From positions 1 to 46,767 of IMG/VR virus record IMGVR_UViG_3300028820_000016: 46,767 nt of DNA, one strand, 5' to 3'. Under the pieces are notes generated by a model that saw only the letters and a program-made list of their open reading frames with translations, was not told the origin of the DNA and did no database searches. Both the position numbers and the translations under genes were made by a program. The stretch is from a virus. Below, piece by piece: positions 2,281 through 33,798 of this stretch. The stretch's first letter is position 1. Each line of letters starts with the position of its first letter.

Positions 2281-4056
2281 ATGCCTAGACAAAAAGATAG
2301 CGAGATAAGTCCGTTTAGTAGTATATCGAATAAACTTGTACAGAGAATCAGTAACTCCAAAGTACTAGGCATAGTTGACTTTATATACAATATTTTGGGG
2401 TTTGATAAAGAGTTATTTTTATCGCAGAGAGCATTGTTGAAGTGTATTTGTGATGAACCTCTGAGTGTTGATGAGGAGGAATTACTCCGGAAGTGGAAAA
2501 AAGAAGGTAAGACTAATTGGGAACCTGGCCATAAATGGTTGGAGATAAATATAGAATTAGGAATGCGCTCCTCTAAAACAGTAATTGCTGCCTGGCTTTG
2601 CTGTTACACGTTGTATAAACTACTAATCAAAGATGATCCTCTAGAAGGCTTTCCAAGAGCAGCTAAAGGCACAACTATATTTATCACAACTATAGCTACT
2701 ACTGAAACTCAATCAAAAGATACTATATACGGCTATATAAAAAATTTTATTCTAAACTCACCTTGGTTCCAGACTTGGATTAAAAGAGAGGAATTAGTTG
2801 TAACTCAAGAAAGAATATATTCGGAGACAAAGAATGTAGTTATATATGCAGGACATTCTAATGGGGGTGCACTTGTAGGTAAGGGGTCCCTATTAGTGTG
2901 TATGGATGAGGTAGCTAGGTTTATAGATGTAACAGGTAGCTATGAAAAAGTGGATGGGTTGGTGAGTTCGCTATCCAAATCTCTAGCAACTTTTGCACCT
3001 GAATCTAAGCGTATAGCAATCAGCTCTGCTTGGGAGTCTGGTGACTACATGGAGAAGCTTGTTAATGAGGGTTGGGATAGAGTAGAGAACGGAGTACTTT
3101 GCTTTAGAGTTCCTACGTTTGACTTTAGGCCTGATGTGACCAAGGATGATGAAGATATAAAACTTGAATACATTAGAGATCCTGTAGGTGCTGCTAGAGA
3201 TTATGAATGCATAAGACCAAAGTCAACTAAAGCATTTTTCGATGAGGCTGAAATTAACTATGCTATCTCGATTGGCGGACACCAAGTTGTAGATTGGCAA
3301 AAAATGTATATAGACAGTAAAGATGGATCTTCTTTATATGTTGGTATTGACTTAATTAGTATTACTCCAGTATACCAGCTTTTTATAAATAGCTATGCAC
3401 ATGCAGATCCAGGTATATCTGGAGACGCTTATGCTTTTGCAGTTGGACACTTAGACGAGGATGCAAAACTTATTTATATCGATGCATTACTTCGTTGGGC
3501 ACCAGAAAAGGTTAACGGTAAAAAATTAAAAGTATCTTTTACAAATGTAGAGGAGGTAATTACTACCATATGTAAAAAACGTAGAGTAGTACATATAACG
3601 TTTGACCATTTTCAAGCGGAGGGTTTAGTTCAGAACCTTATGCAAGAGGGAATAAGAGCTGAGAGTGTCTTCTTTTCCCGTAAAAAGCAAGCTGAAATAT
3701 ATCTACTAGCTAGAAGATGGATTAATCAACGTAGGGTTATACTACCTAAATATGGTCCTTTGGTAGAGGAACTTAGACAGGAGTTAATTCATATTGGCTA
3801 TGACGGATCTAAAATAACTCATCCGCCGCAATATGGAAAAGATTTATCAGATGCAGTTTGTACCGTCATAGCTGCATTAGCTCAAAGATTAGATTTGGAT
3901 GTAGAGACTCTTCCGTATGCTGAGGTACAAACTGTTGGGAGACATCCATCTAGTAGTTTTATAAGACCTGCAACTAACTTGAGCTCGCTCAGAACACCTA
4001 AGGTAAATTCAAGCAAAATCGTAAGAGAGTTTTACAATAACGGAATTTACTGGTAG
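2281..4056 (+). CDS. terL: Terminase large subunit (packaging ATPase-nuclease)
   Basis: This is the motor that translocates phage DNA into the prohead and cuts concatemers. The 591 residues are of usual size. The N-terminal ATPase has a degenerate Walker A (GMRSSKT, residues 94-100) and a Walker B ending in Asp209-Glu210 within a hydrophobic strand (LLVCMDE). The C-terminal RNase H-like nuclease has a first acidic strand (GID, Asp357), a second acidic strand near residue 440 (TFDHF), and a terminal block with HPPQYGKDLSDAV, whose Asp521/Asp524 match the conserved metal-binding end of the fold. The Walker A deviation (RSSKT instead of GxGKT) is common in terminases. The gene begins four bases after the previous stop, lacks a clear Shine-Dalgarno site and is followed 16 bases later by another late gene. 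No separate TerS was identified. Confidence 0.93.
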   Translation: MPRQKDSEISPFSSISNKLVQRISNSKVLGIVDFIYNILGFDKELFLSQRALLKCICDEPLSVDEEELLRKWKKEGKTNWEPGHKWLEINIELGMRSSKTVIAAWLCCYTLYKLLIKDDPLEGFPRAAKGTTIFITTIATTETQSKDTIYGYIKNFILNSPWFQTWIKREELVVTQERIYSETKNVVIYAGHSNGGALVGKGSLLVCMDEVARFIDVTGSYEKVDGLVSSLSKSLATFAPESKRIAISSAWESGDYMEKLVNEGWDRVENGVLCFRVPTFDFRPDVTKDDEDIKLEYIRDPVGAARDYECIRPKSTKAFFDEAEINYAISIGGHQVVDWQKMYIDSKDGSSLYVGIDLISITPVYQLFINSYAHADPGISGDAYAFAVGHLDEDAKLIYIDALLRWAPEKVNGKKLKVSFTNVEEVITTICKKRRVVHITFDHFQAEGLVQNLMQEGIRAESVFFSRKKQAEIYLLARRWINQRRVILPKYGPLVEELRQELIHIGYDGSKITHPPQYGKDLSDAVCTVIAALAQRLDLDVETLPYAEVQTVGRHPSSSFIRPATNLSSLRTPKVNSSKIVREFYNNGIYW

Positions 4057-4072
4057 TCTGGCGGTATCTTTA

Positions 4073-5239
4073 ATGAATTACCTAGTAGAGCCTAGTTATG
4101 TTGTCGGAAGGTTATTAGATTCTGTTAGACCTGCATTTAACTCAAATAGTGGTTCTTTATTAGATCAAAGTCCTTATTCGCTAGCTGAGAGTTTATTAGA
4201 GCTTCCTAACAACTCTAGAATAGCTAGCAAAGACATTGTTTTAGCTATACATCAACCAGAGTTTACAGGATATAGGTCTAGCAGTCATTACCCACCTTAT
4301 ACTTTCTATTATCGAGTAGGAAAAACTCCAGCGGTACCTAAACAGGTTGTACAGCTTGAGCGTACTTCAGACTTAGCAAATACTGTAGATAATTGGCCAC
4401 CAGGAGTACTTTCACCTGATCTACTAAACATACTAAACATCTCTAAGTCAATATCTATTTTAGGTAAGACTTACTACAGAGGTGAAGACTACGATTTGAG
4501 TAGTCCATCTAATCCTACTGGTATAAGGTGGCTTGTAGGTGGCTCTAGACCTCCTTTAGGAACAAATTACTCTATTTTGATTGAGTACTCAACAAGAGAA
4601 TTCAATGAAGCTAGATTAAGGACAGGTCTAATTGAGCTTGAAATGATACCTACTCTAACAAGCTATAACTTGGATAGCTTGTTTTATAGAGTTGACTACC
4701 TCTCTCTACCTGCTTTAAGTAGTTCACAGAAACAAGCTATAGCTACAGATTCAACTGTGTTTGATGAGAGGAACTTTATTCCTTTTCACACAGAACGTTG
4801 GAGGGTGCCGTCTAGATTAAGTTATAAGCGAGAGTTAATCAGAATTGAATTAGATGAAGATGGTTTACTAATAAACGGCACACTAACTCTTCAAAACCTA
4901 ATTTGGGTTTATAAACCTTTTAAATTAGAGCTTGTTATAGAAGACTTATCAGATAACTCGAAAACTACTATTGAAATACCAAATATTAATAATTCTACTT
5001 ATTTGGTATCTCCTGAAGGTATTATTTGGGTTAACAATGCTGTTCTACAGCCTTATGTAAATGGTTTATTAGATCCAAGTGAATATAAGTTGTATTGGTA
5101 TTTCTCATATCAACCAGCATATGGAATAAGCGATGTGTACTGGCGTGTTACTAGACCAGGTGTTTATCCTGCTGATCCTAATTATGTAATAAGCTGGCTT
5201 GGTCTAAGTTATTGGTTTCCTTTATTTTATTACTTCTAA
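4073..5239 (+). CDS. Unknown structural protein between terminase and giant protein
   Basis: 388 residues, not recognised. It is rich in Tyr, Pro, Ser and Leu with many short beta-like stretches, and has no cysteines, membrane segments or catalytic motif. Its composition resembles phage tail or connector proteins, and it sits between the packaging motor and the tape-measure-like gene, ten bases before the latter. Portal or capsid identity is not supported: there is no long helical wing pattern as in portals. It is best treated as a virion protein of unknown type. Confidence 0.8.
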   Translation: MNYLVEPSYVVGRLLDSVRPAFNSNSGSLLDQSPYSLAESLLELPNNSRIASKDIVLAIHQPEFTGYRSSSHYPPYTFYYRVGKTPAVPKQVVQLERTSDLANTVDNWPPGVLSPDLLNILNISKSISILGKTYYRGEDYDLSSPSNPTGIRWLVGGSRPPLGTNYSILIEYSTREFNEARLRTGLIELEMIPTLTSYNLDSLFYRVDYLSLPALSSSQKQAIATDSTVFDERNFIPFHTERWRVPSRLSYKRELIRIELDEDGLLINGTLTLQNLIWVYKPFKLELVIEDLSDNSKTTIEIPNINNSTYLVSPEGIIWVNNAVLQPYVNGLLDPSEYKLYWYFSYQPAYGISDVYWRVTRPGVYPADPNYVISWLGLSYWFPLFYYF

Positions 5240-5249
5240 CTTTAGCTAA

Positions 5250-8200
5250 ATGCCTACCAATACTCAGCACCTTATAGCAGGCAGTTCTTTTACATCATCT
5301 TCTAGAAGAAGAGATGACAATTTTTATTTAGAGCAACCTATAAAAGGTAGAGTTATTAGAGTAATAGACGCTGATACTCTACTCGTTAGGTATACAGATT
5401 ATTCCGGAATTGATAGTGTTAGATATGTAAGAGCTGCTAATACAAACGCACCTGAAGTTAGAAGTATTGGAGATAATAGACCACTATCACAGTTAAGTAA
5501 GATAGAGAGAAATCAGTATTACTTTGGTGATCTAGCTGCAAACAGATTACGTGAAATTTTACGCTCTTACAACAACGAGATTTTACTAAGACTAGATAAA
5601 TCTACAGATATATATAACAGACAATTAGCTAGTTACTATACACCCTCAGGACAATCGATTGAGAAGATATTAGCTGAGGAGGGTTTAACTCTCTATAAAA
5701 CAAGTGAAGAGAAGTTTTCTGGTACAAATCCATCGTTAGAGCTAGAAATATTACGAGCTCAACAAAAAGCACAGAAAGAGCGTTTAGGAATATTTAGTGA
5801 AGGACTTTATTTACCTCCAGATGAGTTCTTAGCTCAGGTTAGAAAGCGCAAAGCCACTGGTGTAGATGTAACACTAGGATCTTTAATTGATAACGTAATA
5901 GGTTTAATTAGACCTAAACATAGGTTTGAGAGGTATGTTAAAGCAACAAATAAATTAGAAGAGAGATTAAGGTTATTAGCTGCTCTAGAAGGAGATATCT
6001 ATACAAGTAGATTAGATCAATTAAGACAAAGATACGGAGACGAAACAGCTAAATTAGTTGATCCTATAACTTACTATAAAGCCCAGGCATTTCGTAGAAA
6101 TACAGATTACGAAACTTATGTATATGCCAGAAGTAGACGTAACATATTTGGTGAAGACAGATTAGTTTTACGTACTCCAGTTTATGGAGATATTACTAGC
6201 AGAGTATTTGAGTCTATCTACCAAGCAAAACGTGTAGCTCTAGGTTATGAGCTCTTAGATACAGGTGAATTACCTAGATTTATTGTAGAACTAGATAAAC
6301 GGAGAGCAGCTCTATCACTTGTAGAAAGAGCAAATAGAGAAGTTTTTAATAACTTAGACAGTACAATCTCTCCATATGTTGCATTAAGCATAGGCTTAGG
6401 TGCCGGTACTGTTACCGGTATGTTTACTAACGTAGCTTTGGAAGCTTTAAGCTATAACTTAACTAATTATGGAACTCTAACAGAAAGAGCTTTTACTAAG
6501 CAAGCTCAGTCTATAGGAAGAACACTGTCTAATAACAGGGGTAGATTAGCTGGAGCAACTATTATAGGTTTACTCACAGGTGCTCTACTAACAGCTTATC
6601 TAAGCAATCGAAATACTCAAGAAGTACTGAATTTAGGTTATTCAGAAGAACACAAGCATAAAAGATTATTATTTGAGAATCCATCTGACTCTTTAACCAA
6701 AGACTTGTACATGGCGGTTGTAAACCGCCTAGATGCCCTGATTAATGGACTAAGTGTAGGCTCAAGAGGAACTATTCGAACTACCTTTGGTAATCTAAGA
6801 GAGCAACCTAAAAGAGATTCGACAATATTAAAGTCAACTTTAGAAGGTTTATTTGATGTAACTCAAGATTTAATATTAGGTACCGCAATATATTACGGAT
6901 TAATGGTACCTGCACAGCAAGCTGTGCAAAGTATTCTTAGTGGAGTATTTCATTATACCTTAGCAAGTTTTGGTGGTGCTGAACGAATAAGATCAACTCC
7001 TGTTGGCTCTTCACTGCTTGCGTTACATCAGGAGGTAGTTGCTACCTTTAGAAGAGCGCAAGCACAAAATGCGTTCTTAGGACTATTTGGAAGACTTGGA
7101 GCAGCTGTTGGATTAGATATCAATATTACTACTCCTATTCAGGGTGGAGTTGTCAGTAAAAATCTAATTAAATTTGATAATTTTAGTTCTTTTGAAGAGT
7201 TTGTCTCTAGAATCGATTCTCAACTAATTAATCCTGCTGAGCATATGAAGGTATATGGGGCAGACCCCACTGCGTACTTAATGCCAGATGCAGCAGGAAT
7301 ACTAAAAACAATTGGGTTTAGATTTGGTGGTCCTGGTAGACAGGTAAGTTTTACGGTAAATAAAGATCGTTTGTGGGAAGGTTTTATTGGTAAAACCAAA
7401 GAACAAAAATTAACATCAGCTCAAAAGTTTGCAGATGCTCTAAATGACTTATTTGCAATTATAGGATATGAAAACTACGGTAACTTACAATTAAGTTCCG
7501 GTATAACTTACACAGCTGATCAATTGTTGGGTGCTGCTAGAGACCAACTAAAGCAGGCTCAAATACAAAAAGCAATGAGCCAGGTTTATGCTAATCCACT
7601 GCGTTGGTTAGGTGTAGTACCTGCAGGAGCTGAGGCTACAGAGGTATCTATGGCTGCTGTTTTTGGCAGCACTGGCTTTATTGCAAGAACTGTAGGATAT
7701 GCAGTTGGTAGACCTCCTACACTACGCTTAAGTCCTGCTTCCTCAACCATTAAGACAACTCTAGATGAAATCAAATACCTAATAGATCGATTTAGAGGTA
7801 TAGCTACACCTGAGCAGCTACAAGCTATTAAAACCTCTAGAAATATACTTACTACGCGAGCGATGCTAATGCATCGTGGAGCATCTGCTCAAGATCTTGA
7901 GCAAATAAACGACATAATTAGTACAGTTGTCAGAGACCCCAGACACCCTACTGATCAAATATCTAGTTTACTTGTACAAACTCGATATAAAACTAGTTTT
8001 GGAACTAAGCTAGCAAGAGCTGGTGCAGTTGCATTAGTTTATGGACTCTTATTTAGCTACATGTTTAAGACCAGTACTGGTCTAGATGCTACGACTCAGT
8101 TTGGAGATGCTATTGCTCAACTAGGTTTAGAATTTCCTGTACCTAATGATACGCCTTTAATCAATATTGGTTGGTCATCTACGTCTATACGAATACGAAA

Positions 8201-11200
8201 TACTGAAACCGGTGAAATTAGAGAAGAAGAAAGAACTCCCTGGTTTAATAGATTTGTTTACTCTGCATTTGTAGGATATGCAATATTTAGTTACTTTGCA
8301 TTTGAAGGGCAAGCATCTATTTTAAAGGCAGCTGCAGCTCAAGTATTAGGAGCAATACCAGGTGCAAAACAAGTTCCAGCAATATCTACTTTTATTAGGA
8401 ACTCATTTGATGAGTACTTCCAGCAAGCTGGATTAAAAATAGCTCTTAATAAACCACTTAAAGCTGCAGATTTTACAGATTTAACTGCTTTACTTAAGCA
8501 AGGCCCTAATTTTACTCAAAAGCTAACTGCTTCAAAAGTATTAGCAGGTAGAGGTGCTAGAGCATTATTAGGGGCAGCAGGTACTTTAACTGCAATATCT
8601 TTAATAGCTGGTTTATTTAACAGCATTAGCTACTCAATGAAGGTAGCTTCTCTAGGAGGTATGTACCAAGAAGGTACATATGTTGATCCTACTTTGCAGG
8701 CTAGATTAAAGCACTTATGGGGTGTATATCAGGAACGCTACTTTGAATCTCCAAATAAATTAAGAACACGGGGTTTAGCACCTATATACACCTACAATGT
8801 GATGCAGATGTTAGACATTGACTCTGCACGACAACGTGAGTCACAAGGTGTACGTAGACAAGCTGGAACCCAACAAATTGGCTCTATCTACGCTACTACC
8901 TTATTTGGGTATGACATAACCAGAGATCGGATGCGTTTTACAACAGGTATGCAGTTACCCCTATACACAATGGGTACTGGATTCGATTTACCTGTTCAGA
9001 TTATTCTTAAAAAGCCTACAGAAAACCAGTTACAAGATCAACAAAGTGATGTAAGTGCGTTTAGATATCCCATTCTACCCTATATCGGTGATAACAGTGC
9101 TTTTACTCCTATACCAATTCCTTTTACCGGAGGGAAAACAGGAAGATTTACTTATGTAGCTAGCTCCACACTAGCTGAGTTCTATAAAAGCTATGCCGTT
9201 ATAAAAGTTGCCTATTCACGTATTATTATGCCTGCAAAGATACTAAAAACAGCAGGCGCTAAGGTAGTTTCTGCATTTGATTCTATCGCTAGTCAAATAT
9301 TATCTAGAAATCAGTCTGCCTTTTTTAACGCAGTTGCAGATTCAGTAACAGTAGCCGGAGAAGTTATCGGCGGTACTCTGTATACTATAGGTGAAAATGT
9401 TACCGACAATATCTTTGTAAAACTCTTAAAATTTACTCATGATTTAGTTAAGCTTACTTTAGACGTCTCTACATCAGCCCTAAAAGCTTATTTATCCCAA
9501 GGTTCTAGATTAGTAGGTCAATTTAGTTATTCCTTAGCTAAAAGCTCTAGACAGGCCTTAGAAAGGCTTTTTAGCAGTGCGGCACAGAATTCTGCAGCAC
9601 AAGTTGGTAATGTTTTACAGAACTCCGCTCCAACATTAACTAAAAGCCAGTTAAGTAACATAACTAGAGGTATAGGTAACATTGCTGTTTCTACTTACTT
9701 AGGTGAATTAGTAGGACAGCAAATATTTGGTGTAGAAGGTGTTGGTGGAGCTGTTGGTTTAACAGTTAGTTTACTCCAAACAATTCACTCTATAGAAGTA
9801 ACTAGACAAGTCAATAAATTTATCAGAACTGATCCTAGGTTTGCAGTTACAACAAATCTAGATGACATTGCTATAGCTAATTTAAGAGCAGCTATAGAAA
9901 CTAAAGAACAGGCCTTAAGAGCTAGTACTAAAATTGGTGGAGTTATACCTAGACCTACTGCTAGAAATCTAGGTGCACTAGCAACATTTGTTCTTGGTGC
10001 TGCAATTCTTTACGGAGTATTTGAAAACTCTAATAGGAGAATACCCAAAAAGTTACGTTTACCTGAAGGTGCTTATCGCTTCAGTATTGATTTAACAGCT
10101 ATACCCGGTTATCAGGCTTTAACTACCCGTAAGGTAATTTTTAGGTATGCAGATGGTACAGAAGTTGAAAGACGTGTACCTAGATTATTTAATCTACCAA
10201 CAGGAGGTATTTACTTACCTCAAAAGATTGATGTTGGACAGTTTCTAAAGCAACTTACGGGTGTAAGTGATAATACATTAGATTTTTATAGTGCAAAAGC
10301 CAGATTACGCGCATACAACACATATGGTGATCGTATTGCGGATTTAATAGATCCAGGTATATTAGGACCTAGAGTTGACTATACAAGAGATAGAAATTTA
10401 ATTTCCATTATTACTAAGCCTTTTAAGATACTTACAGACAGAACTTATTTTGGTAATACACTTACAGATGCTTCAGGTGGAGGGGGCATCCACCTAGGAT
10501 TGGGAGGTGTAACTGCTAGACAGTACGATGGTAATGTCTATGCAGGCTCTAGCTACATGCAGTTTCAGGGTGCTGTAAGCGACATCTCTTTTGCTGAGAA
10601 CATAATGAAAAGTGCGTTTACACCTGGGTTACTGCAAAGTGTACTAGGTGATTCTGCATTAATGTTAATCAATGACCAAGTTACTTTTACTGATGTTAGT
10701 GACGAGGATAGAGATGCATTAATTGCCGGATTGCTTTTTGCAGGTTTACCTACTAAACCATTGAAAAAACCAAGGCAGTTTTCACCAATATTACACAGAA
10801 GTGTATATAGAATTCTGTCCGGCAATAGAGCTACTTCTACTGCATTAGCTAGAAGAGAGGATTATCTAGCTTGGTTAGCAAATGCAAACCAGCTAGATCT
10901 AGCTATGATGTACAATCGTACACCATATCGTAAAGATGTAGACGAAGAAGGCAAATCAGCAGGCTTTTTACCGGGTTTTCCAGATGGTTTTAGCTTCTTC
11001 TTTGCAGGCGCATTAAGATTTCCTAACTACTTTACTAGTCCTATAGATCGTGGTTACGGAAGAAGTCTTGAAAGTACATTTTATGAGGGAATTGAGATAA
11101 CAGGAGGAGATAGATCTTTAGTATTAGTTGGTCAAGATTTAGCTTTAGGACCGGCAAAGACAATTGGAATAGCAGTAGGTGCGACTATAGGTACACTTAT

Positions 11201-14200
11201 TGGTATTAGTATAGCTACAAGAGTTTTAGACAGAGCTTATCAGCTTTCTAGCAAAGCAATAACGAGAAACTTAGGTATATTGAACTCTACCTATGCTAAT
11301 TTAAACGCACTTATACCAGAAACTATAGAACACTTAGCATCTGCTGCAAGAATGGCACAGATAAGCAAAGTTGGAGGATTAGTATCTGAGTCAGGAACTT
11401 TTAATATCACTATCGGTGAAGCTAGACAGTTAAGTTATACAATTCCTGGTAAAACTATTAAGCTATCAAACCTAACTAAGTCTATAGAGAAAGGTCAATC
11501 TGTAATAGGAACAGTATTATCTGAGCGTCAGAGAATACTAACAAATTTCTGGGGTAGTACTGCTGAAGAAGGATTTGGAGGACTACTTAGCTCTGTAAAA
11601 GGTGCTCCAAATGCAAGGCAGATTGATGTTTTAATGAAACAACTCAGCGAATTAAAGAAAAACTTAACTACTTCGCCTTTTGGGTTAATCTCTAATGAAC
11701 AGCTGACGTTAGTAAACAGTGCTATTGAGGAAATTGCTAGACTTAACAGTACAAATATAGATACGGTACAAAATCTTTTAGTTAAATCCTTTGGTATTGA
11801 TTCTAAATTAACAACTGATCTAATAAGTTCAGTTGATGATGTTTTAAGTGCAGCACAAAATTACAAAATTGCAGTAGATTCAAGAGTTGCAGAGAGAATT
11901 CAACCCGCAAGTAAACAACTAGCTAATAGCATGAACACTTTAGCTAGTAAATTGCGGATATATACACAAACTATATTAGATCAATTACCTATCCAAAGTG
12001 TTGGTCACTTTGGAGCAGGTATGTCTATGACAGATAGGGTAGTTGAAATAGGTACAGCAGGAACAGCTAGAAGAACGGAAGATGTGATTGGTGCAGTACC
12101 TATATCAACTAGACCTCCATCTATGACGGGAGATGCTAGTTTACTAAATGCAACTAGAAATAAATTAGCTGCAGCAAGACAGTCGTTTAATAGAATATCT
12201 CCTTCAGCTAGATCAAGAGCAATTGTTGCAACTAAAACTACAGCAAAAGCACTTGGAACAGCAATAAATGCTACTCCCTATGTTCTAACAACATTAAAAG
12301 CTTCTGATTTACTTAGTGAAAATGTAGCTCCAACTAGAGCAGCCATAGGAACAGTAGAGTCTGTTGAAGCTTTAGGACAGTATACAGTAACTGCATTTTT
12401 AATAAATAAATTACTGGCTTTAACAACAACAATATTAACTGTAACTTCTGCTAAGTTTGCAACTCTACTTGGTGGCTCTATGCTGCTAGGTGGATTAGCC
12501 GCTACATTAACTGGTATAGCAATTGTAGGTACAGTCGGATATATTGCTGCTGAAACCGGCATAGATAAAGATAAAAACTTCTCCTTGTTTCATGCTCTAG
12601 GTAAAGCTTTTGATAGAGCTAGTAAAAAGAGAGGCCATTTAGGTATAAAAGGTCAAGCATTTTTAGGATCTTTATGGGAAAGCTTAGGTGATACAGCAGG
12701 AGTAGTATTTAGACGAGCAGAGCAAGGTCTAAACTATCTAGCCAGTTTAGAAGTTCCTTTCACAGGTGGTTATAACTACAAAGCATTTAGAAGAGATACT
12801 ATCAGAACTTTAGCTAGTTTTAGTACTGCAATAAAGGAGTCTGCAGATGAAGGTAATTGGCTTGCATCAGGCTTAATTAATTTTATGACTCCTATATCAA
12901 ACACAAGAGAGAATCTTGCTGTAGCTGCTTATAGAAGATATAGAGACATAAATAGAAGAATGGCTGAAGGTAATGCTTCACTTCTAGAAAATATAGAAGC
13001 AATAACCTTTAGTATTATTACAAACAATTTATTAACTCCCTCTAATCCACTAATCCTAATGGATATGAAGGAGACAAGAGATAAATATAGATACTTTAGT
13101 CCATTTGTACCCGCTGGTGGGGATGTACTTAACAACAGGTTAGAGTCTTTACTAGCTGATTTAACAGATCAACTAGATTACGGTTTAGGTAATGCTGATA
13201 TGCCTTTAATATCAGCTTTAACGTATGGTATTCCTAATCAGAGACCTAATTCAGTTGAAGGTTTAAGAAACTCTGCTTTATTATCCAGCAATGCCGGTGT
13301 ACAACGCGCTGCTTCTAGGTTTAGACCTATTTCAATGATTACTCAAGCAACTGCTTTGCAGTTAGAAATACGTTCTCAGTTAGCTGCACAGGCACTTGCT
13401 GATAGTCATTACAGAGCTTTGTATATAAATAGAAATTTAGATAACAGGAGATTCTTTACTCAGGAGAGAATACCTGATGCAATATTTCCTGAAGGCCCAA
13501 ATTATAAAACACGGTATAAACCTCCAAGGTCAAGACGTCATACTGTTAGAGGTATAGTACCCCCACTTCCTTTATCTCCACCAAGTGATGGACCTCCTTA
13601 TGAGCCAAGTGGATTTCCACTACCAGGTCCTCCTGGTATACAGCCAACTGGTGAGTTACAACAAGAAACTGAAACTGCATCAAGAACAAGACGTAGATCT
13701 ACTGGAAGATCTAGACAGCAAAATCAGACTAGAACTTCTGTAGATCCTACTTACTCACTTTCAAACATAACCTTACTAAATCCGACTATTACTAATAGAC
13801 AAGTAGAAAGACAAATTACTCGTCAGATAGAAAGACAAGTTCCTAAACAAGTTAACAACATAGGTGTAGTTGATTCAGGTTTAGTTACAGGTCCAGCTGG
13901 TGTAATAGGAGCTGGTGCTGCTTATCACATTGATATTAAGTTTTCTAGAAGTCTACCTATTGAAAAGAGGGTTGCCTTATTTGATGCTATTGCTCTTGGT
14001 TATAGAGTACAGGGTAGAGTGATTGAATTCTCCAACTCTGCTGTATCTGGACTTATTTATAACCCAGATGCTCCTTTTGAAGAAAGAGCAAGGTTATTGC
14101 AAAGAGCCGAAGCTGCACACTCGCACAGTGTACACAGTGGTTTTACATCAATTGATTACTACACTCCCAGACAAGGTTCCAATAGGTTTGAAGATACTTC

Positions 14201-17200
14201 TTTAAGAGGTGGACCTATATTAGTTCCTGCATTGCCAGGTCTTACATTGAAATATGGGTCGAGTGGTGGTTATGGAAATTATGTGGTTGGTGTAGACTCT
14301 GAAGGAAATATTCTTTACAAAGTAGGGCATGGAGACTCTAGACGACCATTGCCATCTGATAGGACTATTTCCATTGAACAACCACTAAGATCAGAAACCA
14401 CAACAATAATTGAAACTGTAAACGAAAAAGTAGTTGAAAATATACAAGAGAGAGATATTGGATCTGCAGTCCAAAGTCAAGTAAATAGAATATTAGGAAC
14501 TTATAGACAAAAAAATAAATCAACAAAACCTTCTGATAGTAAGGTACCGTTTGATTTAGCCTTTTTAAACAAGGCTAAACAAGTAGCAGGTAATTTAGGT
14601 ATAAATCCAGACCATCTCTTAGCAATTATTAGCTTTGAGACTGGGGGAACATTTCGTTCAGATACACAAAACCCTAGAAGCCTAGCTATAGGTCTAATAC
14701 AGTTTACACCTCCGACTGCCGCAAGACTAGGTTACACAATTGATGAATTAAAGGCAATGACGCCTTATGAACAGTTAGATGTAGTAGAGAAGTATCTAAA
14801 ACCTTATAAAGGTAGGTTAAACACACTAGAAAGTTTGTATATGGCAGTGCTTTATCCCGCTGCTGTTGGTCGCGAATCTAACACTATCTTGTTTGAGCAA
14901 GGTACACGTGAATATGCAAAAAATATTGGTTTAGATATAAATCGAGATGGTTTTATTACTATAAGTGAGGCGGTAAGTAAAGTTCTTCCCCATTTAGGTT
15001 TAGTACAAACTCATCAAGCTAACCTAATGGAGTCAGAAAATTTAGCTAACTATGGTATTAGTTTAGACACTATTAAGCATACAAAAACTTCCTTTGCTGA
15101 TGCGATAGGTTTTCCTAAACCTAATATTCAAACTCAGGTAGAAGAGTTTGTTAGTAAAAAAAGTTTAGAAATAGTTGAGAAAGCATCTGTATTAACCGAA
15201 TTTGCAAAAGATCGTTTAGATTTTATAGACAATATAGTATCTGGTTCCATTACATTCGAAGAATTTCTAGACAAACCCCCATTAACACCTGATGAGTTAC
15301 GTCTTTTAGATCAGAGACTTAGAGAAGACAAACACAACCCCTTTCAAAAGCTATTAGGCTTTTCCGTAGTCTTAGGTACTATTATCGGCGGTGGAGTACT
15401 TAGCTATAAAGCAGCTAAGGCTGGAATAGGTGCATTAGAAAGTGTTGGAACAAGTCTTAAGGAAAAAGTTGCTCAAATAAATGAAATTAAGAAGCAGAAA
15501 AGAGCTGTAAGAGAATCACTCATAAATGAACAGTTAAATACACAATCTAGCACTATATCTACTGATCCTCAAACAAAAGTTTCAGATTTAGCTAGACAAC
15601 GTTTACAGGCTCAGCGTATACAAAACAAAAGAAAAATTAAACAAGCACGTACCAGATATAGGTTTAACGAGATAACCAATGAAGCTTTTGAATCAAATCA
15701 GCCTAAATTAGATTTATATCCAACAGAATTAGGATCTTCTCCTTATGGAGTAAGTTCTCCTATTCCAAATCAAGTACAAAATCGTGTTGTAGGAACTGCG
15801 ATTGTACCAGTTAGAGAAATAGGAACTAGGGATGCATTAATAGAAGATACTAGACCTAATTTCCGTAGATTTCCTGAAGGAGACAGAACTCCAACTGACC
15901 GACAAACTACTTCAAAAGCTATACAAGCTCAAACTACAGATGTAGCATTATTTCAACCTAATACTCCTATACAACTACTTAATCAAGATTTAGATGTTCC
16001 TGACGATACTCTTCGTTCCCAAGTAGGAGTAAGTTATAGAGGAAGAGGTCGTAGTATTGCAACTAAAATAACTAGATCGCCTAAAGCTACAGATATTAAA
16101 GCAAGATTAATAGATAAGAGTACAAAGGTCTTAAGAAGTACTGAGATTACTGTAACTGAAGGTGGTTTAAATTTAACCTTAAGAGAAGGTGACCGTATAA
16201 TAGCTGAACTAAAAACCTCTGATTTAGCACCACATGATTTGACTCACCTAATTACTGGTTATGACTTTACTACTGGAAGCGAATTAAAAGCTATTGAATG
16301 GGCAGTAAAGCAGTTTTCTAAAGATGTTTCTGATCTCGAAGTAGATATATACGATAGTTTGTATAAAGTTCCAGGTGAAGTAAAAATACTTCTACTTGGA
16401 GGATACAAAAAATTAGGTGAAGGTAGTAAAGTCACAATTAATTTCTATGGAGATAGATTTGACATTGACTTTAATTACACTGCAACTGATGATAGATCAA
16501 GTTTATCAAATCTTTATGATATAGGAAATAACAAATACACACAACAGAACCCAACCAATCCTCTTCAACATACATGGGATGTGTGGGTTGAATTACTAGG
16601 TAACCGTAATAATATTAAAGATACAACGGGATATTCAGGTTTATCCAGAACATATACCAAAGCAGCAGCCAGAAATAGAATTACTTATGATCTTGTAACT
16701 AAGTTACCTCAAGTAGGTTTACAGCCCTCTGAAATAGCTACGAAGAAAAATCAATTACTACAACTAGCAGATCAACTAGGGATAAAAGTTTATATTAATG
16801 AGGATTTTACTAAAAAGGGGTTAAAACCTGATATACAAGGTTTTTACAGAAAAGGTGAAGTATATATAGCATCAGGACTAAGTCCCGAATTAGAGGTTCG
16901 TGTTCTGGCACACGAACTTAGACATGCTGCACAAGATATACAAGGTAAACTAACAGGTAACTTAGATAAACCAACAAAGCCAGGCGGAGCTTCTAGAAGA
17001 ACTATATTTGAGAGACAGGCAGAAGGCGCACAAGGCAATGTCGATATAACTATAAGAAGACTAGAAAAGTTAACTAAGAGGTTTCCTAAACGAATTAGAA
17101 AAGATAGTAGACAAAGAAATCGTATTGTAAGTTTAACTGGCTCAACTCCACTGGAGTATAACGAGTTTACACCTCAAACTTTATATAAAACACAAGCGTT

Positions 17201-19955
17201 TACATCTAACAGAAAACCAAGTTTTACAGCTCTTGAATTTGTAAGAGAGTTAAGTAGAGCTATTGATCCAACAGTAAATATAGAACTCCTAGACAGTGTT
17301 TTACCGGTCCCTTATTCTGAATTCGGTGAATACCAACTAGGTGAATATTACAGAGAGGAAGGTGCTACTTCAGGTTCTATACGTTTAAGACAAGATCTAT
17401 ATGACAGGTTGAATGTAGGTCTAGCTACATTAGAAGATTTAGAAATTGTTGTACATGAACTTGGACATTTTTATTTCGATGTTAAGGGATTAGATGCAGG
17501 AGCTGCTCACTCTACATTAGAGGATGTAGAAAGAGCAGTTAATAGAAGCCCTTTTAGAGATAGGATTTTAGGTTCCATTGCCGAACTAAAGGGTGAAGTT
17601 AGAGTTTACATTAACCAGTTAGATCTATCCGATCCACGTCAGCAGAAGTTAGCTGAGGATGCATTAAATGTACTTAAAATTAAGATGTATGATGAGTTTG
17701 TTACGTATCCATTCGGAGAAGCATACAAAGAATTAGCTAAAACTGTTTACGATAAGTTTGATTTCTTTAGTATTGGCGAAGCTGCACCAACTTTATATTC
17801 AAAGAACTCTGTATCTACTTTATCTAGTAAAACAACAGAACAAGATGTATCTAATTCTACAATAAAGGTTTCTAAATCTATAGATGAGAGAACAGCCTTT
17901 GTAAGAAGGAAAAATCTAAACCGCTTTAATACTACTGACCCACGTGGTTTACTAGAATCTGGTTTAGTAGAGTCTAATAAAACACTGTCTAATACAGATT
18001 TACCAAGAAATGCAGATGTATCACAGAGAATAAAAATTCAAGACAGTGTAAGTAATCGTCAGCTACCTTTAACGCAGTCTAATCAAAAGAATCTCTTTGG
18101 GGACTATAAACACAGTAATAAATATCCTGTAAAAGGTAGCTTAGACTTTGTTGATCCTGTAGCTAATCCCCCTGTCTTAGACTTAAATACCTTAGGTACA
18201 CGTTTTGAGCTTACTGGAGGAGATCAGTATAGTTTATATACAAATCCTGTAGTTAGTCAGCCTGTAGGTATTACAGGACAAAGGTATACATTTAGTAATG
18301 ACTTTACTTTACCTTCGGTAGCTACTGTTCCTAATGCAGTTGTAGATAATGCACAAGCCTTTAGAACTGGTTCAGGTTTTGTAAACTCTGCAGGTAATGC
18401 ATATGATATAGCAGGTACAATTGCAGGAGTAGCTCAACAAACATTTAACCTAAATACAGAACAAACAGTTGGTGTTGGTTTAGCTACAGGAGCTATTTAT
18501 ATAGCAGGCTCTTCGGGACTGTTAGGTGAAAAAGCTGGTGCTGGTATCGTAGCAGCTGTTGAAGGAAGAGCTGTTATGGGATCTACTGTTGTAGATAATG
18601 TAATAACTCGTAATTTACAGCTAGGTGGAGCGGCTGTACCTATAGCCTCACAAGGTGCAGCTATAACCGGTGCTTTATATGCAGGTGATTACAGTAGGGC
18701 TACACAACAACAATTAATTTCTTCTACATCAGCAGTTGTAGCAAGTTTGATTGCAGGTAAATTATATGCAGCTGCTGTAGGTTCTGCATTTGCAGGTCCA
18801 CCAGGTTGGGCAGCATCTGCTGCATTACTTGTAACTGGCTTAGCAATTCAGATATCTGCTGGTAGTTTAGTTGGTCACCAAGTTAGTAAAGCATACCTAC
18901 AAGGAGCATTGAATGATACTCTTAAGAAAACTCCTAGATATTATGATCAAAATGTGCGAGTTATAACATCTTACCAGAGGAGAAAAACACCAAGACAAGA
19001 CAGAATAGGTGCTGTAGGACCTGCTAGATTGCTGATTAACGCAGAGAGGAAGTTAGAAGCGGATATTAGAGAAATATACAGCTCTGTTAGAGGTTCTGTA
19101 GAGGCTTTAATTAGAGCTAATTTAGAAGCAAATATAGTTGGTCTAGAAGAAACCATACGGAGTTTATCAGGCACTACCAATCGTTCAAAGATTTGGGAGA
19201 GACAGAGACTAACTAGAAGGAGAAATAGTCTAGTTAACAATCTACAAAATAACATAGATAAGTTGACAGACGAATATATTAACACACAGGTAGAGCTTTT
19301 AAAGCAGCAAATTGCTTTAGATGATAAGCCTGTACATGCAGTAAGAAATGCATTAATTGATGCTGTACACTCTGCTTATCGTATTAATGAGTTAGCTAGA
19401 GATTTAACTAATTTAAATAATCAGGCTGAAGAAGAGCGATTAAAGTTAATCAGAAGCATTATACTAGCCGATGACCAAGAAGTTCTAAAAGACGGTCCGT
19501 ATCAAGGATTGTCTTACTACTTAGCACAACAGATGTATGAGCAACAAATGCAACAAAAGAATAAAGTTGCTAAGCAAGAAAAAGAACTACAGGAACAACC
19601 TAGTCGACCAAACCAAAACACAAATCAACAAAGACAAGTTGACATTATACAACCTAACTTAGGTAATCCTAGAGATGTAAGAAATAATAGAGGTAGAGGA
19701 ACTGTTGATCCAGCTAAACAGTACGTAGAACCTACACTTATAGCTGCAACAAAAGCAGCAATCGTACAAATATCGCCCACAGCTGCTGCTGTTATTGCCT
19801 CTGCAGAGTTAACTTCCAAACTAATACCTACTAATCTAATTGAGAATGTACAGACATTTTTAAAGTTTAATAGAGGAAAAGAACAGGTTATGAATAGTGA
19901 TCCGGCTATACAAAACTCTAATCCAAATAGCCATACTGATCCTGCTAATCCTTGA
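5250..19955 (+). CDS. Giant multidomain virion protein (tape-measure-like, with nuclease, lytic and metallopeptidase-like domains)
   Basis: The 4901 residues are in one unbroken frame. In order: a staphylococcal-nuclease-like domain (about 30-190) with Asp40-x-Asp42, Arg61, Glu69 and Arg124; many hydrophobic Gly/Ala-rich segments typical of tape measures (near 375-400, 431-451, 925-940, 1005-1020, 1105-1123, 1574-1592, 1971-1993, 2405-2435, 3368-3389, 4496-4546); a Pro-rich then Arg-rich linker near 2770-2830; a degenerate M23-like segment (about 2950-3035, His2962, Asp2969, His3027, with a GGYGNYVV strand); an SLT-type transglycosylase domain (about 3100-3270, probable catalytic Glu3130); a Coq4-like motif (His3662-Asp3663, His3666, Glu3678); two HExxH segments (HELRH 3888-3892, HELGH 4069-4073); and a coiled coil near 4595-4700. 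Size, hydrophobic segments and cell-wall-cleaving domains fit a tape measure ejected with the DNA. At 0.15 nm per residue a fully helical ruler would give about 735 nm of tail, similar in scale to the roughly 5000-residue tape measure of Thermus phage P74-26. A non-tape internal ejection protein is the alternative. Confidence 0.9.
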   Translation: MPTNTQHLIAGSSFTSSSRRRDDNFYLEQPIKGRVIRVIDADTLLVRYTDYSGIDSVRYVRAANTNAPEVRSIGDNRPLSQLSKIERNQYYFGDLAANRLREILRSYNNEILLRLDKSTDIYNRQLASYYTPSGQSIEKILAEEGLTLYKTSEEKFSGTNPSLELEILRAQQKAQKERLGIFSEGLYLPPDEFLAQVRKRKATGVDVTLGSLIDNVIGLIRPKHRFERYVKATNKLEERLRLLAALEGDIYTSRLDQLRQRYGDETAKLVDPITYYKAQAFRRNTDYETYVYARSRRNIFGEDRLVLRTPVYGDITSRVFESIYQAKRVALGYELLDTGELPRFIVELDKRRAALSLVERANREVFNNLDSTISPYVALSIGLGAGTVTGMFTNVALEALSYNLTNYGTLTERAFTKQAQSIGRTLSNNRGRLAGATIIGLLTGALLTAYLSNRNTQEVLNLGYSEEHKHKRLLFENPSDSLTKDLYMAVVNRLDALINGLSVGSRGTIRTTFGNLREQPKRDSTILKSTLEGLFDVTQDLILGTAIYYGLMVPAQQAVQSILSGVFHYTLASFGGAERIRSTPVGSSLLALHQEVVATFRRAQAQNAFLGLFGRLGAAVGLDINITTPIQGGVVSKNLIKFDNFSSFEEFVSRIDSQLINPAEHMKVYGADPTAYLMPDAAGILKTIGFRFGGPGRQVSFTVNKDRLWEGFIGKTKEQKLTSAQKFADALNDLFAIIGYENYGNLQLSSGITYTADQLLGAARDQLKQAQIQKAMSQVYANPLRWLGVVPAGAEATEVSMAAVFGSTGFIARTVGYAVGRPPTLRLSPASSTIKTTLDEIKYLIDRFRGIATPEQLQAIKTSRNILTTRAMLMHRGASAQDLEQINDIISTVVRDPRHPTDQISSLLVQTRYKTSFGTKLARAGAVALVYGLLFSYMFKTSTGLDATTQFGDAIAQLGLEFPVPNDTPLINIGWSSTSIRIRNTETGEIREEERTPWFNRFVYSAFVGYAIFSYFAFEGQASILKAAAAQVLGAIPGAKQVPAISTFIRNSFDEYFQQAGLKIALNKPLKAADFTDLTALLKQGPNFTQKLTASKVLAGRGARALLGAAGTLTAISLIAGLFNSISYSMKVASLGGMYQEGTYVDPTLQARLKHLWGVYQERYFESPNKLRTRGLAPIYTYNVMQMLDIDSARQRESQGVRRQAGTQQIGSIYATTLFGYDITRDRMRFTTGMQLPLYTMGTGFDLPVQIILKKPTENQLQDQQSDVSAFRYPILPYIGDNSAFTPIPIPFTGGKTGRFTYVASSTLAEFYKSYAVIKVAYSRIIMPAKILKTAGAKVVSAFDSIASQILSRNQSAFFNAVADSVTVAGEVIGGTLYTIGENVTDNIFVKLLKFTHDLVKLTLDVSTSALKAYLSQGSRLVGQFSYSLAKSSRQALERLFSSAAQNSAAQVGNVLQNSAPTLTKSQLSNITRGIGNIAVSTYLGELVGQQIFGVEGVGGAVGLTVSLLQTIHSIEVTRQVNKFIRTDPRFAVTTNLDDIAIANLRAAIETKEQALRASTKIGGVIPRPTARNLGALATFVLGAAILYGVFENSNRRIPKKLRLPEGAYRFSIDLTAIPGYQALTTRKVIFRYADGTEVERRVPRLFNLPTGGIYLPQKIDVGQFLKQLTGVSDNTLDFYSAKARLRAYNTYGDRIADLIDPGILGPRVDYTRDRNLISIITKPFKILTDRTYFGNTLTDASGGGGIHLGLGGVTARQYDGNVYAGSSYMQFQGAVSDISFAENIMKSAFTPGLLQSVLGDSALMLINDQVTFTDVSDEDRDALIAGLLFAGLPTKPLKKPRQFSPILHRSVYRILSGNRATSTALARREDYLAWLANANQLDLAMMYNRTPYRKDVDEEGKSAGFLPGFPDGFSFFFAGALRFPNYFTSPIDRGYGRSLESTFYEGIEITGGDRSLVLVGQDLALGPAKTIGIAVGATIGTLIGISIATRVLDRAYQLSSKAITRNLGILNSTYANLNALIPETIEHLASAARMAQISKVGGLVSESGTFNITIGEARQLSYTIPGKTIKLSNLTKSIEKGQSVIGTVLSERQRILTNFWGSTAEEGFGGLLSSVKGAPNARQIDVLMKQLSELKKNLTTSPFGLISNEQLTLVNSAIEEIARLNSTNIDTVQNLLVKSFGIDSKLTTDLISSVDDVLSAAQNYKIAVDSRVAERIQPASKQLANSMNTLASKLRIYTQTILDQLPIQSVGHFGAGMSMTDRVVEIGTAGTARRTEDVIGAVPISTRPPSMTGDASLLNATRNKLAAARQSFNRISPSARSRAIVATKTTAKALGTAINATPYVLTTLKASDLLSENVAPTRAAIGTVESVEALGQYTVTAFLINKLLALTTTILTVTSAKFATLLGGSMLLGGLAATLTGIAIVGTVGYIAAETGIDKDKNFSLFHALGKAFDRASKKRGHLGIKGQAFLGSLWESLGDTAGVVFRRAEQGLNYLASLEVPFTGGYNYKAFRRDTIRTLASFSTAIKESADEGNWLASGLINFMTPISNTRENLAVAAYRRYRDINRRMAEGNASLLENIEAITFSIITNNLLTPSNPLILMDMKETRDKYRYFSPFVPAGGDVLNNRLESLLADLTDQLDYGLGNADMPLISALTYGIPNQRPNSVEGLRNSALLSSNAGVQRAASRFRPISMITQATALQLEIRSQLAAQALADSHYRALYINRNLDNRRFFTQERIPDAIFPEGPNYKTRYKPPRSRRHTVRGIVPPLPLSPPSDGPPYEPSGFPLPGPPGIQPTGELQQETETASRTRRRSTGRSRQQNQTRTSVDPTYSLSNITLLNPTITNRQVERQITRQIERQVPKQVNNIGVVDSGLVTGPAGVIGAGAAYHIDIKFSRSLPIEKRVALFDAIALGYRVQGRVIEFSNSAVSGLIYNPDAPFEERARLLQRAEAAHSHSVHSGFTSIDYYTPRQGSNRFEDTSLRGGPILVPALPGLTLKYGSSGGYGNYVVGVDSEGNILYKVGHGDSRRPLPSDRTISIEQPLRSETTTIIETVNEKVVENIQERDIGSAVQSQVNRILGTYRQKNKSTKPSDSKVPFDLAFLNKAKQVAGNLGINPDHLLAIISFETGGTFRSDTQNPRSLAIGLIQFTPPTAARLGYTIDELKAMTPYEQLDVVEKYLKPYKGRLNTLESLYMAVLYPAAVGRESNTILFEQGTREYAKNIGLDINRDGFITISEAVSKVLPHLGLVQTHQANLMESENLANYGISLDTIKHTKTSFADAIGFPKPNIQTQVEEFVSKKSLEIVEKASVLTEFAKDRLDFIDNIVSGSITFEEFLDKPPLTPDELRLLDQRLREDKHNPFQKLLGFSVVLGTIIGGGVLSYKAAKAGIGALESVGTSLKEKVAQINEIKKQKRAVRESLINEQLNTQSSTISTDPQTKVSDLARQRLQAQRIQNKRKIKQARTRYRFNEITNEAFESNQPKLDLYPTELGSSPYGVSSPIPNQVQNRVVGTAIVPVREIGTRDALIEDTRPNFRRFPEGDRTPTDRQTTSKAIQAQTTDVALFQPNTPIQLLNQDLDVPDDTLRSQVGVSYRGRGRSIATKITRSPKATDIKARLIDKSTKVLRSTEITVTEGGLNLTLREGDRIIAELKTSDLAPHDLTHLITGYDFTTGSELKAIEWAVKQFSKDVSDLEVDIYDSLYKVPGEVKILLLGGYKKLGEGSKVTINFYGDRFDIDFNYTATDDRSSLSNLYDIGNNKYTQQNPTNPLQHTWDVWVELLGNRNNIKDTTGYSGLSRTYTKAAARNRITYDLVTKLPQVGLQPSEIATKKNQLLQLADQLGIKVYINEDFTKKGLKPDIQGFYRKGEVYIASGLSPELEVRVLAHELRHAAQDIQGKLTGNLDKPTKPGGASRRTIFERQAEGAQGNVDITIRRLEKLTKRFPKRIRKDSRQRNRIVSLTGSTPLEYNEFTPQTLYKTQAFTSNRKPSFTALEFVRELSRAIDPTVNIELLDSVLPVPYSEFGEYQLGEYYREEGATSGSIRLRQDLYDRLNVGLATLEDLEIVVHELGHFYFDVKGLDAGAAHSTLEDVERAVNRSPFRDRILGSIAELKGEVRVYINQLDLSDPRQQKLAEDALNVLKIKMYDEFVTYPFGEAYKELAKTVYDKFDFFSIGEAAPTLYSKNSVSTLSSKTTEQDVSNSTIKVSKSIDERTAFVRRKNLNRFNTTDPRGLLESGLVESNKTLSNTDLPRNADVSQRIKIQDSVSNRQLPLTQSNQKNLFGDYKHSNKYPVKGSLDFVDPVANPPVLDLNTLGTRFELTGGDQYSLYTNPVVSQPVGITGQRYTFSNDFTLPSVATVPNAVVDNAQAFRTGSGFVNSAGNAYDIAGTIAGVAQQTFNLNTEQTVGVGLATGAIYIAGSSGLLGEKAGAGIVAAVEGRAVMGSTVVDNVITRNLQLGGAAVPIASQGAAITGALYAGDYSRATQQQLISSTSAVVASLIAGKLYAAAVGSAFAGPPGWAASAALLVTGLAIQISAGSLVGHQVSKAYLQGALNDTLKKTPRYYDQNVRVITSYQRRKTPRQDRIGAVGPARLLINAERKLEADIREIYSSVRGSVEALIRANLEANIVGLEETIRSLSGTTNRSKIWERQRLTRRRNSLVNNLQNNIDKLTDEYINTQVELLKQQIALDDKPVHAVRNALIDAVHSAYRINELARDLTNLNNQAEEERLKLIRSIILADDQEVLKDGPYQGLSYYLAQQMYEQQMQQKNKVAKQEKELQEQPSRPNQNTNQQRQVDIIQPNLGNPRDVRNNRGRGTVDPAKQYVEPTLIAATKAAIVQISPTAAAVIASAELTSKLIPTNLIENVQTFLKFNRGKEQVMNSDPAIQNSNPNSHTDPANP

Positions 19956-22922: not shown

Positions 22923-22943
22923 ATTAATATAGTTTTAGATAGA

Positions 22944-22972
22944 GTATTACACATTTTGATACATATTGTCAA
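22944..22972 (-). promoter_or_regulatory. Near-consensus sigma70-type promoter
   Basis: On the minus strand TTGACA (22972-22967) and TAATAC (22949-22944) are separated by exactly 17 bases. This is the best housekeeping-type promoter in the window and points at the three-gene operon 22907-19945, with transcription expected to start near 22937. A match this close to host consensus suggests early expression by unmodified host RNA polymerase. Confidence 0.75.
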
Positions 22973-22986
22973 GAGATTTTGATACA
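22953..22986 (-). repeat. Two direct repeats flanking the -35 box (operator candidate)
   Basis: The 11-base sequence TGTATCAAAAT occurs twice on the minus strand, at 22986-22976 and 22963-22953, with a 23-base period, about two helical turns. One copy lies just upstream of the -35 box and the other fills the spacer between -35 and -10. A protein bound to both copies would block or recruit RNA polymerase. The tandem, same-orientation layout fits the tandem duplication in the first gene product, but that pairing is inference. Confidence 0.55.
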
Positions 22987-23006
22987 AAAGTAACATTATT
23001 ATAACA

Positions 23007-23153
23007 CTAATTTTTTTCAGTTCTAACCGTGTTCTGTAAACTGGTTTTGGAGTAGTAAATCTTAATGCGAATAGGACAACCCAAACCAAGAGCAGATCCT
23101 ATACAACGGGCTAAAATTTGAATTTTAAACTTAAAGTCATTGATATCATCCAT
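23007..23153 (-). CDS. Small unknown 48-residue protein
   Basis: An ATG-initiated frame of 48 codons lies between the deaminase gene and the strong promoter. The product begins MDDINDFKFKIQILARC and ends in a Lys/Glu/Asn tail. It has a balanced, protein-like composition with Ile/Leu spacing that could form an amphipathic strand or helix, and two cysteines. It is about 36 bases downstream of the deaminase stop on the same strand, so it could be co-transcribed. The Shine-Dalgarno site is poor. No function can be assigned, and the overlapping longer frame (22871-23089) looks like a shadow. Confidence 0.45.
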   Translation of the reverse strand: MDDINDFKFKIQILARCIGSALGLGCPIRIKIYYSKTSLQNTVRTEKN

Positions 23154-23189
23154 GATCTTTTGTTTCCCAGCCTTAATTTAGCGGGATAG

Positions 23190-23624
23190 TTAAACAACTA
23201 TAGCTTTAACAAATTGTGGTGTTAACTCTATACGTTTTCTTTTTACCCAACTTCCATCTGTATCTCTATAAACAATTTGTTTTACTTTAGAGTTAATTAA
23301 AAGGTTATTACATCTCGGACACGGTTTTGTTGTTTTTAAAATATTACTATTTGTTCTGCCCACTATATAAACTGTACAGTTACTTATATCACATTTTGAT
23401 AATAAGTCAGCTTCTGCATGTGTTCCCATTAAGTTATAGATGCCTTTGCCAGGTCTTCTACGTGGAAAATAGTTGTAACCTATTCCTATAATTCTCCCAG
23501 ACCTTATTGCTACAGCTATAATACTAACTCTACCAAATGAGTTATGCTTCTCTACAGTGCGTAGACAACTGTTAATCCAGTTAATTTGGGATTTAGACAA
23601 ACTATTGTCAGAAGGGCTTGTCAT
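23190..23624 (-). CDS. Cytidine/deoxycytidylate deaminase-family zinc enzyme
   Basis: This is a zinc-dependent deaminase of the cytidine/dCMP family, 144 residues. The signature is complete: His69-Ala-Glu71 (zinc ligand and proton-shuttling Glu) and Pro-Cys102-x2-Cys105 (two Cys ligands). The likely reaction is deamination of dCMP to dUMP, feeding thymidylate synthesis for AT-rich phage DNA. Substrate choice cannot be settled from the motif, since the family also includes free cytidine and tRNA deaminases. It is separated from the upstream nuclease gene by a clear terminator, so it probably has its own promoter in the short gap. A TATAAG close to the end of the T-tract is a possible -10, but weak. 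Confidence 0.85.
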   Translation of the reverse strand: MTSPSDNSLSKSQINWINSCLRTVEKHNSFGRVSIIAVAIRSGRIIGIGYNYFPRRRPGKGIYNLMGTHAEADLLSKCDISNCTVYIVGRTNSNILKTTKPCPRCNNLLINSKVKQIVYRDTDGSWVKRKRIELTPQFVKAIVV

Positions 23625-23656
23625 ATACTACTGAACTTAAACCATGGCTTATAACG

Positions 23657-23680
23657 AAAAAACGGGCCTAATCTAGGCCC
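23657..23680 (-). terminator. Intrinsic terminator after the nuclease gene
   Basis: A perfect seven-base-pair GC-rich stem (GGGCCTA/TAGGCCC, three-base loop) is followed on the minus strand by GTTTTTT. It lies 26 bases after the stop of the PD-(D/E)XK nuclease gene and would end the operon that begins upstream of 30176. Confidence 0.85.
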
Positions 23681-23705
23681 CATTTTATCTACTCTATTGA
23701 GTTTG

Positions 23706-24740: not shown

Positions 24741-24754
24741 TTTATTTCCGCTTA

Positions 24755-24793
24755 TATCTGTAAGTGCTCATATTATTTTAGCACTTACAGATA
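24755..24793 (-). other. Hairpin across the ruvC stop codon
   Basis: Perfect 14-base-pair inverted repeat (TATCTGTAAGTGCT / AGCACTTACAGATA) with an 11-base loop. On the minus strand the first arm includes the stop codon of the resolvase gene, and the structure ends 14 bases before the next start codon. There is no T-tract, so it is more likely an RNA-processing, stability or translation-control element than a terminator. Confidence 0.6.
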
Positions 24794-25357: not shown

Positions 25358-25359
25358 TA

Positions 25360-28231: not shown

Positions 28232-28234
28232 AAC

Positions 28235-30176: not shown

Positions 30177-30332
30177 ATTTTAGACAGCTGGTTCAGTTAA
30201 TACTACTTACTTATTTTGACTATGAAGTGTGTTTAATCACAGCCTATTATTTAGCATTACTGCTTAAAAATTACTCAAATAGGCGAGTATATTTTACCAT
30301 ATAACAATAATTTTTATTCGTGCAATTATTAT

Positions 30333-30374: not shown

Positions 30375-30396
30375 GACTTTATTTATTCAAGTCTAA

Positions 30397-33665: not shown

Positions 33666-33690
33666 TAGACTTATTCACAGTTTCTTATTT

Positions 33691-33735: not shown

Positions 33736-33798
33736 TCGTTCTTTACTCTTTTGTTAGTTTGTATATGTAATTTATTCGCTTCTTAGGAGCCATAGTTT

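Follow-up and report, generated by a model that had tools for sequence, protein, structure and literature searches.

The window analysed here is the whole of a linear IMG/VR virus record of 46,767 bases, itself a fragment. A terminase large subunit gene (2281-4056, plus strand), the nearest named relatives of which are those of the Ma-LMM01 group and of a Microcoleus phage (~31%), is followed on the same strand by a 388-aa gene (4073-5239) that is devoid of cysteine and gave no family match, and then by one open frame of 4,901 codons opening with ATG (5250-19955, plus strand). That this stretch encodes a single uninterrupted chain of 4,901 residues, as a sequence-only reading of the DNA had claimed, was thus borne out. 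The giant protein contains no cysteine at all; the frame holds 0 in-frame Cys codons, compared to counts of 51 and 318 for the remaining forward frames, indicating that it is the selected reading frame. The coding strand flips after the giant, leading into genes for a primase, a PD-(D/E)XK nuclease, a UvrD helicase, DNA polymerase A, UDG and a dCMP deaminase. Within this replication half (30397-46426), RecA-like, PhoH-like and Hsp20-like genes, recognized by eye, and the UDG gene lie beside that of the very divergent DNA polymerase A. Searches of the window for RNA families and tRNAs found none. Since both the terminase and the DNA polymerase are closest to the enzymes of Microcystis and Microcoleus phages, the host of the virus is likely to be a cyanobacterium.

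The N-terminal part of the giant, which the sequence-only reading had described as nuclease-like, proved to carry an SNase-fold module (residues 31-200; 5340-5849, plus strand). Pfam PF00565 (SNase) matches residues 61-183 with an E-value of 3e-7, above the curated cut-off; a profile built from the window domain and those of three relatives (four members) matches the Staphylococcus aureus nuclease at 2e-14; and the AlphaFold2 model of the domain, with a core pLDDT of 80-95, retrieved SNase structures in Foldseek (E 2.5e-7). Compared to the S. aureus enzyme, the equivalents of D21, R35, E43 and R87 are kept while those of D40 and T41 are replaced by N and A, respectively, leaving four of the six residues of the full set (catalytic residues and calcium ligands, which bear on activity and not on fold). 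D40 is a calcium-ligand residue. Owing to the replacement of D40 and T41, the activity of the window module is uncertain, and with the nuclease of the Ma-LMM01 giant also looking degenerate, nuclease activity may perhaps be dispensable.

Further along the chain, residues 2869-3031 (13854-14342, plus strand) share 42% identity over 163 aa with gp009 of Synechococcus phage S-WAM2, a hypothetical protein whose gene adjoins the baseplate genes of that cyanophage. No Pfam M23 match was obtained anywhere in the giant at E<1, and the degenerate M23 segment proposed earlier gives way to this match to an unannotated protein. The segment is followed by an SLT lytic transglycosylase domain (residues 3102-3245; 14553-14984, plus strand), the earlier call of which is backed by phrog_196 (E 2.4e-36) and by the lytic transglycosidase of PDB 9udh (E 3e-31); the Pfam SLT score, 18.0 bits, falls slightly under its cut-off, and the FETG segment with the catalytic Glu is present. 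The two HExxH motifs expected from that reading are also there, where composition alone would yield ~0.02. The first, HELRH at residue 3888 (16911-16925), lies in a zincin-like region (16749-16943, plus strand) weakly matched by phrog_87 metallo-protease (1.3e-5) and DUF6782 (0.011), and the second, HELGH at residue 4069 (17454-17468, plus strand), is seen as a motif only. A Kyte-Doolittle scan, in agreement with the hydrophobic segments noted before, returned nine of them, all on the plus strand: residues 433-451 (6546-6602), 1105-1123 (8562-8618), 1573-1591 (9966-10022) and 1971-1989 (11160-11216), a pair at 2380-2429 (12387-12536), one at 3368-3386 (15351-15407), and a C-terminal hairpin at 4496-4542 (18735-18875). 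The hairpin is placed like the C-terminal hydrophobic cluster of the relatives described below, a likeness of position with no significant sequence match. The picture of several enzymes in one chain is therefore supported, with the SNase and SLT domains holding up in profile searches and both HExxH motifs present.

Judged by its sequence, the giant is one of a family of very large cysteine-free proteins, so far without annotation, from viruses related to freshwater cyanophages. We refer to it as the Ma-LMM01 gp120 family (phrog_29513); its named members come from Fukuivirus and Microcoleus phage My-WqHQDG and are all annotated as 'hypothetical protein'. They include gp120 of Microcystis phage Ma-LMM01 (2,898 aa) and the giants of MaMV-DH01 (2,899 aa) and My-WqHQDG (4,151 aa), to which scans of IMG/VR added six further lineages (L042, 4,390 aa; L043, 5,484 aa; L044, 2,882 aa; L045, 2,961 aa; L063, 3,209 aa; L078, 3,564 aa). 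The family giants are interrelated by BLAST and, window excluded, span 2,882-5,484 aa downstream of the terminase. The order terminase, small gene(s), giant, all on the same strand, is found in Ma-LMM01, MaMV-DH01, MaMV-DC, the Microcoleus phage and the window, and the 388-aa gene is syntenic with the small gene(s) separating terminase and giant in the relatives; from its position just upstream of the giant it could possibly encode a partner or chaperone. Convergent replication genes follow the giant, where seen, in Ma-LMM01, MaMV-DH01, MaMV-DC and the Microcoleus phage, and the terminase and the giant also adjoin in the IMG/VR relatives wherever both genes are visible. The terminases of three relatives carry LAGLIDADG inteins (L027, 7124-11470; L028, 8810-12703; L030, 8012-11092), and a terminase frame of similar appearance, 1,674 aa long, is present in the L078 record.

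The window protein meets this family in a core motif common to its members, GGVTxR...YxQxQGxxxDIS...PLxxPRxxS, at residues 1751-1878 (10500-10883, plus strand); what the family conserves there is YxQxQ....DIS.A, with G/R before it and P...R..S after it. Its E-value improved with the depth of the profile, from 0.021 with two sequences to 6e-5 with six and 3.1e-6 with the HMM of eight relatives, whereas the best of the shuffled or reversed decoys used as controls reached 0.019. These ~130 residues are the only significant stretch, and the window giant is not alignable over the whole core. A model of this core built for L063 (631 aa, seven sequences) consists mainly of helices, with strands around the motif, and at a pLDDT of 36 was too poor for a fold search. 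No close relative of the window giant was retrieved by single-protein or alignment queries in IMG/VR, in GTDB genomes, or by tblastn of its N-terminal half. Based on the core motif, and also on synteny, size, the missing cysteines and the nuclease at the N-terminus, we take the window giant to be a very divergent member of the family and not an ordinary one. It shares with the gp120 family the position after the terminase, the giant size, the missing cysteines, the hydrophobic segments and the core motif, and, with My-WqHQDG and other members, an N-terminal nuclease module. The window giant alone among the members examined has an S-WAM2-like segment and an SLT domain added, and its HExxH sites are placed differently from the two found in the giant of L043, which is larger than that of the window and also bears a GDSL lipase and a PLD domain. 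The number and mix of domains, put forward earlier as unrecognised in one chain, are thus not without precedent: family members carry varied extra modules, the 5,484-aa L043 chain is multi-domain, and the 5,002-aa tape measure of Thermus phage P23-45 combines an RNA polymerase with a metallopeptidase (PMC10770324).

The region between the N-terminus and the core holds a nuclease family in eight of the nine lineages by Pfam, namely SNase in the window, L045, L063 and L078, and PLDc_2 in My-WqHQDG, L042, L043 and L044. The giant of Ma-LMM01 gave no Pfam nuclease match; a degenerate PLD-like stretch is visible by eye only, without a recognisable HxK. Elsewhere the catalytic residues are in place, L045 retaining all six SNase residues and the four PLD members having HxK and SHN. 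The most telling comparison is that of L063 (giant at 3962-13606) with My-WqHQDG (L002, giant at 22926-35381). Their terminases are 84% identical, the first 22 residues of their giants are 82% identical, and the cores are 71% identical over ~2,950 aa; between shared start and core, L063 has an SNase (residues 26-256) while My-WqHQDG has ~1,190 aa ending in a PLD domain (residues 27-1214). The L063 core recurs in an independent contig, L064. With terminases and cores this close and yet an SNase arm in one phage and a PLD arm in the other, one nuclease has recently replaced the other while the carrier stayed, making the slot an exchangeable one. This exchange is a new finding, as are the family-wide absence of cysteine and the presence in relatives of a second giant.

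The absence of cysteine extends to the family as a whole, in that the nine giants of the nine lineages contain one Cys in 34,440 residues where the Cys content of other Ma-LMM01 late-region proteins (~0.45-0.6%) would predict about 154 or more; the other proteins of the window have 1.24% Cys. Known ejected proteins used as controls were likewise free of cysteine: lambda gpH (0/853), T5 pb2 (0/1,219), P23-45 gp96 (0/5,002), T7 gp15 (0/747), T7 gp16 (0/1,318) and the N4 virion RNA polymerase (0/3,500). Exceptions are P1 DarB, an injected protein with 9 Cys in 2,255 residues, and P2 gpT (1 in 815), and because of these two the missing cysteines are to be read as suggestive only. Some ordinary capsid proteins are also free of cysteine, but they are short. 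Absence of cysteine was not found stated as a rule for ejected proteins in the open literature searched.

Five phages carrying the first giant also encode a second, unrelated one of 2,622 to ~5,400 aa that is similarly devoid of cysteine. This gp80 family comprises Ma-LMM01 gp80 (L057, 101-10789) and the proteins of L058, L059, L060 and L061; the one Cys of gp80 is at residue 21, ahead of a plausible later start. No match was found between the two families, nor between the second giants and tape-measure PHROGs, and the L060 protein gave a weak PLD-like match.

Taking together the domains, family, synteny, missing cysteines and nuclease exchange observed here, we favor, with a probability of roughly 60%, the view that the giant of this cyanophage-like virus is a virion protein ejected as a carrier, which would deliver a nuclease-fold module. 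Most likely it is carried in the particle and ejected from it, a proposal suggested by its lack of cysteine, its hydrophobic segments and its wall enzyme, all of which resemble those of known ejected proteins. The carrier chain would exit the particle together with the DNA or before it, and its conserved, cysteine-free and mostly helical core with hydrophobic segments would traverse the cell envelope. The SLT domain, S-WAM2-like segment and zincin-like sites of the middle and C-terminal part would open the path, the share of the peptidases in this being only possible. The N-terminal nuclease-fold module, an SNase here and a PLD in relatives, would then reach the cytoplasm, as the P23-45 RNA polymerase does, and may act early in infection on host or competitor DNA, with the host chromosome, a rival phage or a plasmid as candidates.

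How such a protein would be housed in the particle is a separate matter, and we are more confident of ejection from the virion than of a tape-measure function. That the ejected carrier also sets tail length has about even odds, and a tape measure proper, extended in the tail tube with its domains as accessory enzymes, seems to us slightly less probable than that. The size and layout of the giant resemble those of P23-45 gp96 (PMC10770324); like the tape-measure controls it lacks cysteine; weak matches to two different tape-measure PHROGs occur near the C-terminus of relatives (L044, 0.008; L063, 0.014); and no standard tape-measure family is found elsewhere in these records, PhageMin_Tail being absent and phrog_1293 matching only inside the giant of G005. 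Among other Ma-LMM01 proteins considered for the role, gp108 and gp109 share phrog_877 and are called tail proteins in the group's other records, and gp98 gave no informative match. Against a tape measure, the window giant itself matched no tape-measure family among Pfam and PHROG profiles, its gene lies outside the sheath, tube and baseplate cluster (far from the sheath and baseplate genes in relatives, the window being only a fragment), neither a chaperone pair nor a frameshift gene was seen adjoining it, and the second cysteine-free giant of the relatives could fill the role instead. Tape measures account for ~0.15 nm of tail length per residue, at which the syntenic 2,899-aa giant of MaMV-DH01 would predict a tail of ~435 nm. 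The tail of this phage measures 260 nm (PMC9927357), that is ~0.09 nm per residue, a ratio too low unless the chain is much folded. The length of these giants thus does not simply translate into tail length, if they measure tails at all, and the earlier suggestion that a tape measure of this size would mean a tail among the longest known is not supported.

A less favored arrangement, which we regard as possible while leaning against it, is that the giant resides in the head and is packaged along with the DNA for ejection, as is the N4 virion RNA polymerase, with the gp80 family or another protein serving as tape measure. The gene adjoins the terminase and not tail genes, the 3,500-aa N4 enzyme is similarly cysteine-free, a second giant (2.6-5.4 kaa, cysteine-free) is at hand in five relatives, and a phage 'Internal protein' (PDB 9k2v) is among the relatives of the SLT domain. 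To be set against this, the weak tape-measure matches fall in the gp120 family and none in the gp80 family, and we know of no head-packaging signal. It is also conceivable, if unlikely, that the nuclease-fold modules do not cut and are DNA-binding ends tethering the genome terminus to the carrier. A module without the D40 and T41 equivalents in the window, a PLD-like stretch without HxK in Ma-LMM01, and the restraint that a nuclease ejected alongside the phage's own genome would need all fit such a tether; the intact residue sets of L045 and of the four PLD members speak against it, and a shared activity better accounts for the swap of one nuclease fold for another that is unrelated to it. Finally, a giant that is absent from the virion and acts as a large early takeover protein in the cytoplasm would hardly be expected to have a peptidoglycan lyase, hydrophobic segments and no cysteine, or to be transcribed the same way as the terminase and opposite to the replication genes, and we consider it improbable.

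The ejected-carrier reading gives some of the largest 'hypothetical' genes of Ma-LMM01-type cyanophages a testable role, that of carriers with a swappable nuclease, for which the phage pair with near-identical terminases provides an existing natural swap of one nuclease fold for another. More speculatively, and with clearly less than even confidence, cysteine-free ejected giants might constitute a delivery platform the N-terminal slot of which must hold a nuclease, of SNase or PLD fold, for an opening attack on the DNA of the host or of rivals, some phages having a second giant, and the absence of cysteine might be a signature of virion proteins that unfold through the tail. If supported by a wider survey, it could become a simple marker of ejected proteins in unannotated phages.

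Several known systems resemble parts of this arrangement. Compared to the tail and internal virion proteins of several phages whose phrog_196/SLT domains are ~40-50% identical to that of the window over ~140 aa, the domain is here a single module within a 4,901-aa chain. Polyvalent proteins also assemble many enzymatic domains per phage chain, zincin-like peptidase and lysozyme-type domains included (PMC5512222), and the window giant, as they do, has several conflict-type enzyme domains in one chain; none of the recurrent PolyVal domains was found in it by Pfam, and the text of the polyvalent-protein paper makes no mention of SNase, tape measures or cyanophages (PMC5512222). The N4 virion RNA polymerase gp50 is, like the window giant, very large and cysteine-free, and is ejected; a zincin-like domain has been described in N4-type enzymes (PMC5512222). 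It differs in its enzyme and its location in the head, and shares no sequence match with the window giant. The closest counterpart is gp96 of P23-45, a 5,002-aa tape measure with an N-terminal virion RNA polymerase, a metallopeptidase and transmembrane segments (PMC10770324). Residues 4650-4723 gave a BLAST match to this protein (E 0.005, 77 aa), which likely reflects a low-complexity helix and was not taken as reliable homology. The two proteins are alike in size and lack of cysteine, in the nucleic-acid enzyme at the N-terminus, and in having a metallopeptidase and transmembrane segments; gp96 differs in bearing an RNA polymerase and not a nuclease, and in being encoded within a late head/tail cluster. 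The proposed role of the window giant would extend the P23-45 precedent of a tape measure joined to an RNA polymerase to nucleases.
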